DNA from: Afipia sp.
GTDB taxonomy: Bacteria > Pseudomonadota > Alphaproteobacteria > Rhizobiales > Xanthobacteraceae
Reading direction: 5' to 3'
DNA length: 64,000 nt
Assembly: GCA_024707075.1 (NCBI GenBank)
Contig: JANQAK010000003.1
Location: 682,001 to 746,000, forward strand
Shown here: piece after piece, positions 43,009-46,841 of the stretch
Layout: each line of letters begins with the position of its first letter
Numbering within the stretch: the first letter of the stretch is position 1
The notes under the pieces: model-generated
Databases searched by the model: none
Told to the model about the DNA's origin: nothing
What the model saw: the letters and a program-made list of their open reading frames with translations, nothing else
Made by a program: the position numbers and the translations under genes

Positions 43009-44382
43009 TCAACGGACCGTCAGGCGCAGGAAACTCATGATGCAGCCGACGGCGGCAAAGCCTGCCCCGAGCGCCAGGGCCCACGTCGCGCCCCCGTGTC
43101 CGGCAAGGGCGAAGCACAGTGCCGCAAGCGCCGCGCCGGTGGTCTGGCCGATCAGCCGCCCGGTCGCCACGAGACCGCTGGCGCCGCCGCTGCGGCCCGG
43201 CGGCGCGGCGGCCATGATGGCTTTCATATTCGGCGACTGGAAGAAACCGAATCCGCAGCCGCAGATCGCCATGCGCCAGACGATGTCGGCGACACTCGGC
43301 GATGCCGGGAGCATCGCCAGCAGCGCCATTCCAATGCCGAGCAATACGAGTCCCAACCCGCCCAGCACACCGGCGGAGTGGCGATCCGACAATCTTCCTG
43401 CGATCGGCGCCATGATCGCGACCACGATCGACCATGGCGTCATGAAGAATCCGGTCTCGACCTGGGTGCGATGAAGGACGTCCTCGAAATAGAACGGCAG
43501 CGACACGAAGGCGAGCCCCTGCACCGCGAACGAACAGACGGCGGTTGCAACGGACAATGTGAACATCGGCCTGCGGAACAGATCGATGGGCAGCATCGGC
43601 GCCGGATGATCGGCCTGCCGGCGCAGCAGCAACGCGCCGAAGATCACCGCCCCCACCAACTCGGCAACGACGATGACAGCCGAGGCCCCATGCGCGGCGC
43701 TGCCGATTCCGAGAATGAAGAGACACAGGCAGATCGCCGTCAGCAGCGCGCCGAGAACATCGAAGGCATGGCGCGCGCGCGGCGTCTGCGGCAGGGTCCT
43801 GATGCCGATCAGCATCGCGGCAACGCCGAACGGAATGTTGATGGCGAACAGCCACGGCCACGATGCGACCGACAGAATGCCCGATGCGATCGCCGGGCCC
43901 AGCGTGAATGCGGTGGCGACGACGAGCGCATTGTTGCCGAACCCGCGCCCGTGCAGCTGCGAGGGATAGACGAACCGGACCAGCGCCGTGTTCACGCTCA
44001 TGACCCCGGCGGCGCCGAGTCCTTGCAGAACGCGCGCGGCCAGCAACGTCGGCAACGACCACGCCAGCGCGCAGGCCAGCGACGCCAGCGTGAACAACAG
44101 CAGTCCGCCGAGATAGATGCGCTGATGGCCGACGATCTCGCCGAGCGCCGCCAGCGGCAGCAGCGTTGCGACCATGGCGATCTGGTAGACGTTCACGACC
44201 CAGATGACATCGGCGGGCGTCGTGTGCAGGTCGGCGGCGATGGCCGGGAGCGCGATATTGGCGATGGCGGTATCGAGCGCCGCCATCGCGAGCGCCGTGA
44301 AGATCGCCAAAACCGCCCACCGCCTGCGCTCAGGAGGAAGGCCGTCGGTGATGGGCGCGAGCGTCGGCGAAGTGGCGTCCAT
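43009..44382 (-). CDS. MFS drug/metabolite exporter, DHA2-like
   Basis: A 457-residue major facilitator with 12-14 hydrophobic segments. MFS features are LDTAIANIALPAIAADL (the DHA2 family motif in helix 1), the A-motif-like loop LGEIVGHQRIYLGG, RVLQGLGAAGVMSVNTALV and the repeat GRLSDRHSAGVLGG in the second half. It probably exports drugs or metabolites with proton influx across the inner membrane. ATG at 44382 (MDATSPTLAP) is chosen; a longer open frame upstream lacks hydrophobic sequence. Confidence 0.82.
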   Translation of the reverse strand: MDATSPTLAPITDGLPPERRRWAVLAIFTALAMAALDTAIANIALPAIAADLHTTPADVIWVVNVYQIAMVATLLPLAALGEIVGHQRIYLGGLLLFTLASLACALAWSLPTLLAARVLQGLGAAGVMSVNTALVRFVYPSQLHGRGFGNNALVVATAFTLGPAIASGILSVASWPWLFAINIPFGVAAMLIGIRTLPQTPRARHAFDVLGALLTAICLCLFILGIGSAAHGASAVIVVAELVGAVIFGALLLRRQADHPAPMLPIDLFRRPMFTLSVATAVCSFAVQGLAFVSLPFYFEDVLHRTQVETGFFMTPWSIVVAIMAPIAGRLSDRHSAGVLGGLGLVLLGIGMALLAMLPASPSVADIVWRMAICGCGFGFFQSPNMKAIMAAAPPGRSGGASGLVATGRLIGQTTGAALAALCFALAGHGGATWALALGAGFAAVGCIMSFLRLTVR

Positions 44383-44552
44383 CGTGCCGGATATCCTGAA
44401 AGAGGCTGGGAATCGTGCCCTGCATATAGACGGGATGCCTTCCGCCCTGCACTGCCCGCGCTGCATGCGGCATATGCGCGACGCAGGAATCCGGTGAAAC
44501 CAGCCGCCCTCACGAAAGCGTTACGCTTTGCCGGTTGCTCCACCGCCGGTCA

Positions 44553-45656
44553 TCACGGCGAACTCAGCGAGTCCTCTCCGAGATAGCGGATTCGCGCCTC
44601 GTTCCATGCCTCCTTCTGGATCGCGTCGAGGATCGCGATCGACAACGATTTCCGAAGTCGGCTGTCCGGCGGCAGCGCGAAGGCATAGTTCTGCGTCTCG
44701 ATGGAAATATCGAGCAGCTTGAGCCGCGAGGCGTAGCCCTGACGGATGGCCCACGCGAGCAAGGGCTTGTCGTAGACGAACGCATCGATGCGGCCTGCGC
44801 GCAGCGCCTTCAGTCCGTCGCCGGGCGTCTCAAAGGTTTGGAACTTGATCTTGCGCCGCAGGAGATCGCCTTCGGACGATGTTCCCTTCACCGTGCCGAC
44901 CCGAACCGATGCAAGGTCTGCGACGCCATAGATCGTTCCCTGGATTTGCGACGTCGTCAGCACCGAGGTCACACCGGCGGTGAAGACCGCAATGGTAATC
45001 ACCGACACCACCAGCCATATCACCGCCACGGCGCGGCCCAGAATGGTCTGCGGGCCTTTCTCCGCCGACGATCGCTGGGTCATCGCCAGCGTCGACCACC
45101 ACACGCTGGAGCTGATGCCCTTGGTGATGCTGCCGCCGAAATAGTCGTTCTGCCGCCGCTCCAGCAGCCAGACCAGAATGCCGGCGCCCAGCGTCAGCGC
45201 AATCAGTACAGAGATCGCTTGCAGAAAATTGAACGAGGTCAGCGCGCGGCGCAGCGTGCCCCAGTTCATCACGCTGACGATGGGAACGGCGATGCCCGTG
45301 CCGGTCGAATAATAGGACTGCGTGAAATCGAGAACCTTCTCGCGATCGACGGTGACGGTGATCGCGCCGACGGCGACGTCGAGACGTCCGGACGCCGTTT
45401 CCTCGATCAACTGAGGCATATCTCGGGCTTCGACGAAACGGAATGTCTGGTTCGTCGCCTTCGCAACCTGCCGCCACAGTTCGATGCTGAGGCCCGACCA
45501 CGCGCCGTCCGACCCTTTCAGCGCAAACGGCGGCGCGTCCTTGACGCCAACCACAAGCTCGCGCTTCTGAGGCACCGCCGCCTTCTGCGTTTGCGCGTAG
45601 GCAAACGGCAGGACAGACACCCACATGAGCACCACACAAAATATCCGCAGGATCAT
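44553..45656 (-). CDS. Ionotropic glutamate receptor-like protein (GluR0-type ligand-gated channel)
   Basis: A 367-residue protein arranged as signal peptide (1-21), amino-acid-binding lobe 1 (about 33-127, ELVVGVKDAPPFALK), membrane helix (about 146-166), pore-loop region (ISSSVWWSTLAMTQRSS, 181-197), a second long helix (about 207-235) with FTAGVTSVLTTSQI (225-238), then binding lobe 2 (about 240-345). This split of a periplasmic binding protein by a two-helix, one-pore-loop channel is the defining layout of ionotropic glutamate receptors. FTAGVTSVLTTSQI resembles the pore-lining SYTASLTSILT of plant receptors. The TVGYG potassium filter of cyanobacterial GluR0 is absent. Ion and ligand unknown. 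It is divergent from the quinone oxidoreductase. Confidence 0.8.
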   Translation of the reverse strand: MILRIFCVVLMWVSVLPFAYAQTQKAAVPQKRELVVGVKDAPPFALKGSDGAWSGLSIELWRQVAKATNQTFRFVEARDMPQLIEETASGRLDVAVGAITVTVDREKVLDFTQSYYSTGTGIAVPIVSVMNWGTLRRALTSFNFLQAISVLIALTLGAGILVWLLERRQNDYFGGSITKGISSSVWWSTLAMTQRSSAEKGPQTILGRAVAVIWLVVSVITIAVFTAGVTSVLTTSQIQGTIYGVADLASVRVGTVKGTSSEGDLLRRKIKFQTFETPGDGLKALRAGRIDAFVYDKPLLAWAIRQGYASRLKLLDISIETQNYAFALPPDSRLRKSLSIAILDAIQKEAWNEARIRYLGEDSLSSP

Positions 45657-45871
45657 CGTCTTTTCCGCAAATCCGGCTCCATCCGCAAGCCAAGGCTGGA
45701 AATCCAATGACGCGTTTGTGACAGATTCTGCTGAGCGGCGCGTTATCAAAAAGCCCGGCTTTGTCAGCGATTTGCGGCAAGAGACCACCCGGATCGGCTT
45801 TTGTGGCCCGGCGAAAGCACTGCTATACCTGCACACTTCATCCCTGCCCGCATGTCTGAAAGAACAATCCC

Positions 45872-46841
45872 ATGAAAGCCTATGTCTACGGCGCGAATGG
45901 CGCCGCGATCACCGATGTGCCGAAGCCCTCGCCCCGGGGGCCGCAGGTGCTGGTGAAGGTCCATGCCTGCGGCATGAACCGCGCTGATCTGGGCATGATC
46001 AAGGGCCACGTTCACGGCTCGGCGGGAGGCGTCGGTACCGTGCTCGGCATGGAATGGGCCGGAGAGATCGTCGAACTCGGGCCTGATGCGAAGGGCGTGA
46101 AAGTTGGCGATCGCGTGATGGGCTCGGGCGCGGGAGGTTACGCGGAATATGCCGTGACGGATTACGGCCGCCTGTTCCCCATCCCCACAGGAATGGACTT
46201 CGAGCAGGCCGCCTCACTGACGCTGGCGCTGACCACCATGCACAACGCCGTGGTGACCAATGGCGCGCTCCAGCCGGGCCAGAGCCTTCTGGTGCAAGGC
46301 GCGAGTTCGGGCGTCGGGCTGATGGCGCAGCAGATTGCGAAGCTCAAAGGCGCGAAGCTGGTGATCGGCTCATCCACCGATCCGAAGCGCCGCGCGCAGC
46401 TCACGGACCACGGCGCGGACCTGGCCATCGATTCTGAATGATCCGGCGTGGGTCGATCAGGTGTTGAAGGCGACCGGCGGTGCCGGCGTCGATGTCATCA
46501 TCGATCAGGTGTCCGGTAAACTCGTGAGCCAGAACCTCGCCGCAACGAAGGTGCTCGGCCGCATCGTCAACGTCGGCCGTCTCGGCGGCACCCACGGCGA
46601 TTTCGACTTCGATCTCCACGCCGCGCGGCGTATCAGCTACATCGGCGTGACGTTCCGCACGCGGTCGATCGAGGAGATCCGCGACATCTTCACTGCGGTG
46701 AAACAGGACATCTGGCCTGCGGTTGAATCCGGCAAATTGAAACTACCGATCGACCGCGTGTTCCCGTTCGGCGATATCGCACAGGCCGTGGAGTATATGT
46801 CGGCCAACAAGCACTTCGGTAAGATTGTCCTGAGGTTCTGA
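45872..46841 (+). pseudogene. Zinc-independent quinone oxidoreductase (MDR family), frameshifted
   Basis: ATG 45872 starts a medium-chain reductase (MKAYVYGANGAAITDVPKPSPRGPQVLVKVHACGMNRADLG, GTVLGMEWAGEIVELG, LLVQGASSGVGLMAQQIAKLKGAK). A stop appears at 46439-46441. The family sequence goes on one frame over (NDPAWVDQVLKATGGAGVDVIIDQVSGKL...FPFGDIAQAVEYMSANKHFGKIVLRF) to 46841. Deleting one base in ATTCTGAATG gives 322 residues. No structural zinc lobe is present, as in NADPH:quinone reductases. As written, the product lacks part of the nucleotide-binding domain. Confidence 0.82.

Follow-up and report, generated by a model that had tools for sequence, protein, structure and literature searches.

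Described prokaryotic receptors

Among the prokaryotic ionotropic glutamate receptors, 22 proteins were described by Ger et al. (2010, PMC2950845), 12 of which have a K+ filter, whereas 10 ('Group 2') are without it and have been termed 'putative glutamate-sensitive ion channel'. According to the same source, the α-carboxyl and α-amino groups of the ligand are held by an arginine of lobe S1 and an aspartate of lobe S2. GluR0 is reported to be a K+ channel whose ends are located in the periplasm and which plays a role in cell volume under KCl stress (PMC13099474). Among the receptors discussed in PMC11479355, GluR0 and the rotifer receptor AvGluR1 are the nearest to the bacterial type for which selectivity has been measured, and both are K+-selective. 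Ionotropic glutamate receptors have an acidic residue four positions past the Q/R/N site, for which GluR0 is stated to have a '+4 aspartate equivalent' (PMC12226733). In animal receptors, Q-to-R editing leads to Ca2+-impermeable channels with a slight chloride permeability (PMC11479355). How the non-selective filters of animals and plants arose from a K+ filter is still an open question.

The protein described here is encoded in Afipia sp. (GenBank assembly GCA_024707075.1, contig JANQAK010000003.1) within a stretch of 64,000 nucleotides, which was analyzed as a whole and is referred to as the window. It is proposed, with good though not full confidence, to be an ionotropic glutamate receptor with two membrane helices and a P-loop, which is located in the inner membrane and has both ends in the periplasm. 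This proposal draws on the fold, the order of the topology, the amino-acid-binding residues, the constrained pore loop and a QRSSAE filter aligned with TVGYGD, as read from the sequence and from a structural model.

Gene and domain order

The gene of the receptor-like protein is located at positions 44553-45656 on the minus strand of the window, as indicated by its open reading frame and by homology. The frame runs from 45656 to 44553, starts with ATG and encodes 367 residues, in exact agreement with the coordinates of an earlier note on this DNA, which had not given the strand. A GTG at 45836 is a possible longer start. Directly after the ATG follows a hydrophobic stretch ending in AYA/Q, which is signal-peptide-like by eye, and residues 1-21 (45594-45656) are the likely signal peptide; model confidence is below 50 at residues 16-29.

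The following parts are arranged in the order ligand lobe 1, M1, pore loop, M3, ligand lobe 2. The ligand-binding lobes S1 (residues 33-128; 45273-45560) and S2 (residues 240-361; 44574-44939) were delimited by Pfam and by sequence and structure matches in the PDB. Three helices of the AlphaFold2 model correspond to the membrane helix M1 (residues 142-166; 45159-45233), to the pore helix with VWWSTLAMT at its end (residues 177-193; 45078-45128), which is also marked by sequence constraint, and, after a loop, to M3 together with the gating region VFTAGVTSVLT (residues 205-239; 44940-45044), which was also placed by alignment. The filter loop QRSSAEKGPQT (residues 194-204; 45045-45077) takes the place of TVGYGD according to ungapped alignments with TVGYG relatives and K+ channels. 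M4 and an amino-terminal domain are absent, as the protein begins with S1 and stops after S2.

A plus-strand ORF at 44535-45710 overlaps the receptor gene and most likely represents its shadow. Scans of 44380-45900 for promoters and terminators found none of either, and no sigma-70-like promoter was found upstream of the gene at 45657-45760. A short part of this upstream region (roughly TTTTGGTAA ... GTCACA) is conserved in most of the 12 genus sequences aligned.

Homology and predicted structure

Three Pfam families match the Afipia protein above their cut-offs, namely Lig_chan at residues 151-252 (E-value 4.7e-16, 59.3 bits against a cut-off of 30.8), SBP_bac_3 (1.9e-19) and Lig_chan-Glu_bd (1e-7). 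In sequence searches of the PDB, for which the best 60 of a larger number of matches were tabulated, the phmmer matches listed include the GluR0 ligand core (8.4e-20), the plant receptor AtGLR3.4 (7lzh; 2.4e-19) and GluA2 (9.3e-14). The match to AtGLR3.4 is a single alignment of residues 82-346, which spans both lobes and the pore. A profile of 16 relatives (alignment A1) extends over both the ligand and the membrane portions of AMPA receptors, with 1e-25 as the best value among the PDB matches listed. When the pore segment (residues 130-242) was searched alone, the PDB matches listed comprised the receptors GLR3.4 (7.5e-8) and GluA2 (8.3e-5) as well as the K+ channels Kv2.1 and KCNQ2 (2.2e-4 each) and KcsA (0.0042). 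PADLOC gave no match, and NCBIfam gave only matches below the cut-off, mostly to substrate-binding proteins.

A monomer was modelled with AlphaFold2, for which the window protein was aligned with loci from named genome contigs (48 rows in all). The model has a mean pLDDT of 83.8 and a pTM of 0.66, and the filter loop is its least certain pore part, with a mean pLDDT of 64 at residues 191-200. Foldseek found 1468 PDB matches at an E-value of 0.001 or better, the best 50 of which are AMPA-receptor chains matching over the ligand and membrane domains (365-395 columns) with a best E-value of 2e-21, TM-scores of 0.50-0.64 by query and rmsd values of 5.7-11.0 Å; these rmsd values presumably result from a differing placement of the ligand domain relative to the membrane domain. 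In a second comparison with VIA-align, two GluR0-type ligand cores came out closest, 2pyy with a Z value of 29.5 and an rmsd of 1.6 over 212 aligned positions and 1ii5 with a Z value of 29.0 and an rmsd of 2.0 over 219, each containing L-glutamate, followed by glutamine-binding proteins with Z values of 26.9-28.6. As these are so near to the GluR0-type cores, the fold of the ligand domain alone cannot separate a receptor from a binding protein; it is the P-loop unit that tells the two apart.

By sequence homology, the Afipia protein is a prokaryotic ionotropic glutamate receptor, and the assignment as ionotropic glutamate receptor-like made in the earlier note is borne out by the Pfam matches over cut-off, the GLR3.4 alignment, the AlphaFold2 model and the matches to AMPA-receptor structures. 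The same holds for the claim of an amino-acid-binding fold split by a membrane unit, since the lobes flank the helices and the P-loop in Pfam, in the alignment and in the model. A missing pore loop had been named as evidence to the contrary; the model has a pore helix and a loop between the membrane helices. FTAGVTSVLTTSQI is present at residues 225-238. The suggested match of M3 to the SYTxxLxxxLT region of plant and animal receptors held in part: in VFTAGVTSVLT, the T and the final LT are kept, whereas S, Y and L are replaced by V, F and V.

Ligand-binding site

Conservation was assessed in a class of 74 rows, whose identity to the protein of the window is 42% or more. A member with a broken frame (L126) was excluded, and the relative L024 falls just below the threshold with 40% identity; in L024 the ligand residues are intact and the pore loop is degraded, with neither WW nor MTQ. 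The scan that yielded most of the class members required a pattern with W186-W187 or F225-T226-A227, and the constancy of these positions is therefore partly by construction and is not taken as evidence.

R105 (45342-45344) is predicted to bind the α-carboxylate and D296 (44769-44771) the α-amino group of the ligand. Both align with the corresponding arginine and aspartate of GluR0 in the phmmer alignment and both are present in all 74 class rows; the loss of these lobe residues, which had been named as a second piece of contrary evidence, has thus not occurred. T102 is found in 74 and T100 in 70 rows (Ser in the other 4). These residues of the binding site would fit an α-amino acid as ligand. 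S260 and S261 vary within the class and the identity of the ligand is therefore not fixed.

Pore loop and filter

The sequence VWWSTLAMTQ, regarded earlier as the pore loop, is present at residues 185-194, but mostly forms the pore helix, and the filter proper is QRSSAE, which comes after it. The absence of the TVGYG motif was recognized correctly. Between W187 and P202, the protein aligns without gaps to TVGYG relatives (WSTLAMTQRSSAEKGP compared with, for example, WTVVTISTVGYGDKTP), and KCNQ2 and Kv2.1 align to the filter in the same ungapped way. TTVGYGD is thereby placed on TQRSSAE, and the positions of TVGYGD are taken by Q194, R195, S196, S197, A198 and E199. None of the three GYG residues is retained, and an arginine is located within the loop.

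T193 and P202 occur in 74 of 74 class rows each, and Q194 in 70, with Arg in the remaining 4. Position 195 (45072-45074), which aligns with the V of TVGYG, is Ala in 39 rows and Arg in 35 and nothing else. Six class members from Mesorhizobium read TQASTGD and have retained GD, and TQAGAAQ is found in 15 rows, the named ones of which belong to Bradyrhizobium. On a 79-row tree, a single change suffices to explain the 35 Arg rows, with a support of 94 from a quick method that gave long-branch warnings; in a more careful 58-row tree, the branch of the Arg rows (16 rows) has a support of 99/94.

In the phmmer alignment with GluA2, Q194 is placed on the first Q of MQQGCD, which is the Q/R site, and E199 on the D, with one inserted residue. 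In the ungapped alignment with K+ filters, R195 is located at the Q/R/N site and E199 represents the +4 acid. Accordingly, either Q194 or R195 would be the Q/R/N site, with the other one adjacent to it.

Filter classes and phylogeny

The window protein has 34-41% identity to nine TVGYG receptors compared with 20-31% to receptors without a K+ filter outside its own class, which is called the MTQ class in the following. Unrooted trees of 61, 58 and 79 rows were calculated from rows chosen by the authors among 131 distinct ones; the long-branch rows L059, L128 and L134 were left out of the tree of 58. When the filter columns were masked in the tree of 58 receptors, the MTQ class and the pore-degenerate L024 formed a clade (99/98) within a larger group (100/99), which further includes 10 TVGYG proteins as well as the two Vibrio-like rows and whose internal branching order has bootstrap values of 80-94 and is weakly supported. 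The other common class without K+ filter, named ATQ, is a clade of its own (100/98) and is placed beside two other TVGYG proteins (95/84). Thus, the receptors without K+ filter do not form one clade in the filter-masked tree.

Placing all TVGYG rows on one side of a branch was rejected for the full-length, filter-masked alignment (p 2e-92), and so was placing MTQ and ATQ together on one side (p 1.6e-7), a grouping that was named after the tree had been seen. A single TVGYG clade was also rejected for the ligand lobes alone (p 1.5e-6) but stayed compatible with the membrane part alone (91 columns; p 0.22). Because the lobes and the membrane part differ in this test, either there was more than one in-place change of the filter, for which the unrooted tree is compatible with both directions, or pores have been exchanged; swapping of pores between receptors would thus be possible.

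The ATQ class (L027, L032-L036, L038, L039 and L041) has a filter two residues shorter than that of the MTQ class, and its M3 reads YTAQLAATLTVQQI, which by eye is nearer to the eukaryotic SYTANLAAF region. Among the PDB matches listed, an ATQ profile reaches up to 116 bits with AMPA receptors compared with 94 bits for an MTQ profile. GLR3.4 has 104 bits with the MTQ profile and is not among the best 60 matches listed for the ATQ profile. The Nostoc core 2pyy has 294 bits with the ATQ and 131 bits with the MTQ profile among the matches listed, and this solved core is therefore nearer to the ATQ class.

Further filters without GYG are TSGK/TSGR (L163, L164, L168, L169, L171, L172, L179, L183 and L184) and NGGF (L132, L133 and L165); in the tree, TSGK is a firm and NGGF a weakly supported group. 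Relatives with other filters were found in Paracoccus, Vibrio, Photobacterium, Roseibium and one cyanobacterium. Four clustered receptor-like genes (L135, L145, L149 and L150) are located at 3951-9769 on contig C64 of an alphaproteobacterium of 1.9 Mb (G372), and neither TVGYG nor the usual arginine motif of S1 is present in their aligned rows.

Distribution and gene neighborhood

A full-length copy with at least 76% identity is encoded in 15 of 29 Afipia genomes including that of the window, whereas 8 other genomes have a more distant class member (48-52% identity) and 6 have neither. Within the family, Lig_chan was found in 30 of 198 genomes, in 29 of them over the cut-off. Receptors with a membrane part are present in at least 13 of 385 genomes of the class Alphaproteobacteria and at least 28 of 398 of the phylum, which are lower bounds as at most 5 candidates per genome were scored with alignment A2; in one of these genomes (G170), the gene is split over two frames. 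Relatives occur in Afipia, Bradyrhizobium, Mesorhizobium, Kaistia, Ancylobacter, Aureimonas and metagenome bins, and a plasmid of Rhizobium tumorigenes carries a class member. The 67 loci considered include one with a broken frame (L126) and one TVGYG protein (L128). Weak relatives (H34, H36-H38; 25-27% identity over 81-84% of the query) are encoded on four Salmonella plasmids, where they are labelled transporter substrate-binding proteins.

Eight scanned neighbors of the gene in the window were assigned by Pfam to a dihydrouridine synthase, an acyltransferase, an enoyl-CoA hydratase, an MFS carrier, a zinc-type dehydrogenase in two frames, a cation-efflux carrier (CDF), a histidine kinase and GlnE. 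In the 12 close loci (at least 75% identity), the CDF and MFS genes are found in 12, the histidine kinase in 11, the enoyl-CoA hydratase in 10 and the dehydrogenase in 9. None of the window's neighbor genes is located beside the receptor gene in any of the 55 more distant loci, as would be expected of a stand-alone receptor. These 55 include at least three loci from Afipia-named genomes with copies of 47-50% identity; these copies thus have another genomic location and are possibly not orthologues. In a survey of 54 distant loci, in which ORFs were chosen greedily and the 25 largest families were inspected, families recurred at a fixed place only among close relatives, for example in Kaistia.

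In all 12 close loci, the receptor gene is followed on the same strand by the MFS gene, which could point to an operon; as the gap ranges from less than 100 bases to about 1 kb, an operon is not claimed. The divergent zinc-type dehydrogenase gene adjoining the receptor gene (45872-46841, plus strand) is split into two frames in the window, whereas both parts are in a single frame in the nine close loci that have it, as judged from match positions; the window copy is frameshifted or carries a sequence error.

Proposed function and alternative readings

The Afipia protein is predicted to be an amino-acid-gated channel that is not K+-selective, and this reading is considered the probable one. Four copies would make one pore, and a periplasmic α-amino acid would close both lobes, which would pull M3 and open the pore for ions to pass without K+ selectivity. 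From the arginine at or next to the Q/R/N site and the effects of Q-to-R editing in animals, a low Ca2+ permeability is predicted for the homomer; by this analogy the channel is possibly poorly Ca2+-permeable, probably passing little Ca2+, and perhaps of low conductance or with some anion leak. Amino acids outside the cell could thereby lead to a brief shift in membrane potential or ionic state, much as proposed for GluR0.

As a second reading, the protein could be a degenerate, non-conducting sensor, the membrane unit of which merely anchors the amino-acid-binding domain. The missing TVGYG and the intact binding residues would agree with this, and so would L024, which has lost the pore motif and kept the ligand residues, so that non-conducting members can exist; L024 itself is perhaps a true non-conducting sensor. 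However, of all regions compared, the pore loop shows the strongest purifying selection. In a simple pairwise count over 14 genus orthologues (the window and 13 others), dN/dS is 0.025 for P-loop residues 178-204, where 26 of 27 positions are invariant, compared with 0.088 for M1, 0.096 for M3, 0.19 for S1, 0.13 for S2 and 0.50 for the signal peptide. A dead pore is not expected to be constrained more than the ligand lobes, and the loop residues T193 and P202, constant throughout the class, as well as the lack of a kinase, methyl-accepting or cyclase domain in the Pfam scan of the protein also speak against a sensor. This reading is therefore regarded as unlikely, and of the two alternatives left by the earlier note, the predicted ligand-gated channel is favored by the P-loop dN/dS and by the close copies in 15 and the more distant class members in 8 other genomes of the genus.

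That the protein serves an ABC transporter for amino acids as its substrate-binding protein is very improbable. This function is suggested by the SBP_bac_3 match and by the public label 'transporter substrate-binding domain-containing protein', seen on the plasmid relatives, and glutamine-binding proteins share the fold of the ligand domain, but the binding domain is interrupted by a P-loop unit matching Lig_chan. Furthermore, none of the 8 scanned neighbor genes encodes an ABC permease or ATPase, and one large family, taken by eye for ABC-like, lies no more than four genes away in 10 of 54 other loci, where its positions are scattered and on both strands. The label thus hides a likely channel and is corrected here. 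That the protein is K+-selective like GluR0 despite its altered filter is hardly credible, for although the filter loop retains the length and register of TVGYGD and the tree places the MTQ class together with TVGYG proteins, no residue of GYG is kept and an arginine is located inside the loop.

For the predicted non-selective channel, a tentative evolutionary scenario, which is somewhat more doubtful than probable, is that an alphaproteobacterial lineage altered the K+ filter in place (from TTVGYGD via a TQAxxGD-like form to TQR..E), separately from the other common class without K+ filter, and that one clade fixed an arginine where animals edit the RNA of the Q/R site. If true, this would be a natively 'edited-like', homomeric amino-acid-gated channel, Ca2+-poor and perhaps anion-leaky, and a second, independent experiment in making a K+ filter non-selective. 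The MTQ class combines the length and register of the old filter with new residues, TVGYG relatives for comparison and a natural Ala/Arg switch. Owing to these features, both the change from K+-selective to non-selective and the effect of a filter arginine could be tested in small bacterial proteins.

Comparison with known receptors

As far as the description of 'Group 2' by Ger et al. goes, the Afipia protein answers to it, and the kind of protein is already known. It has the topology, a P region of no known selectivity and the retained arginine and aspartate in common with this group; in the filter-masked tree, the MTQ class and the other common class without K+ filter are separate. In a literature search, mostly outside subscription journals, no paper was found that deals with the MTQ class or reports recordings of bacterial receptors without K+ filter. 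New here, at the level of aligned sequences, would be the gapless alignment of TQRSSAE with TTVGYGD, the grouping of the MTQ class with TVGYG receptors and the Ala/Arg switch.

With GluR0 from Synechocystis (Slr1257; 'Group 1'), the Afipia protein shares the order S1-M1-P-M3-S2, the absence of M4 and of an amino-terminal domain, and the ligand-binding arginine and aspartate, and the GluR0 core is among the two closest solved ligand-core folds. The TVGYG filter of Group 1 is absent, and TQRSSAE is found in the aligned position. GluR0 carries the K+ filter and is described as K+-conducting (PMC13099474), whereas the Afipia protein reads QRSSAE.

AtGLR3.4 (7lzh) is the best sequence match among eukaryotic receptors in the PDB matches listed. 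An arginine in the filter region is also described for plant receptors (PMC11479355). The plant filter (FFSHRE) is two residues shorter than the Afipia filter in the alignment and the plant Arg666 is located elsewhere in the loop; M4 and an amino-terminal domain, both missing from the Afipia protein, are part of the plant receptors.

AMPA receptors, which also differ by having M4 and an amino-terminal domain, are the best structural match over the ligand and membrane domains among the best 50 of the 1468 matches. Q/R-edited GluA2 has an arginine at or beside the Q/R site as well, and its +4 aspartate is aligned with E199. In contrast to edited GluA2, the arginine of the Afipia protein is genome-encoded and would be present in every subunit of a homomer.
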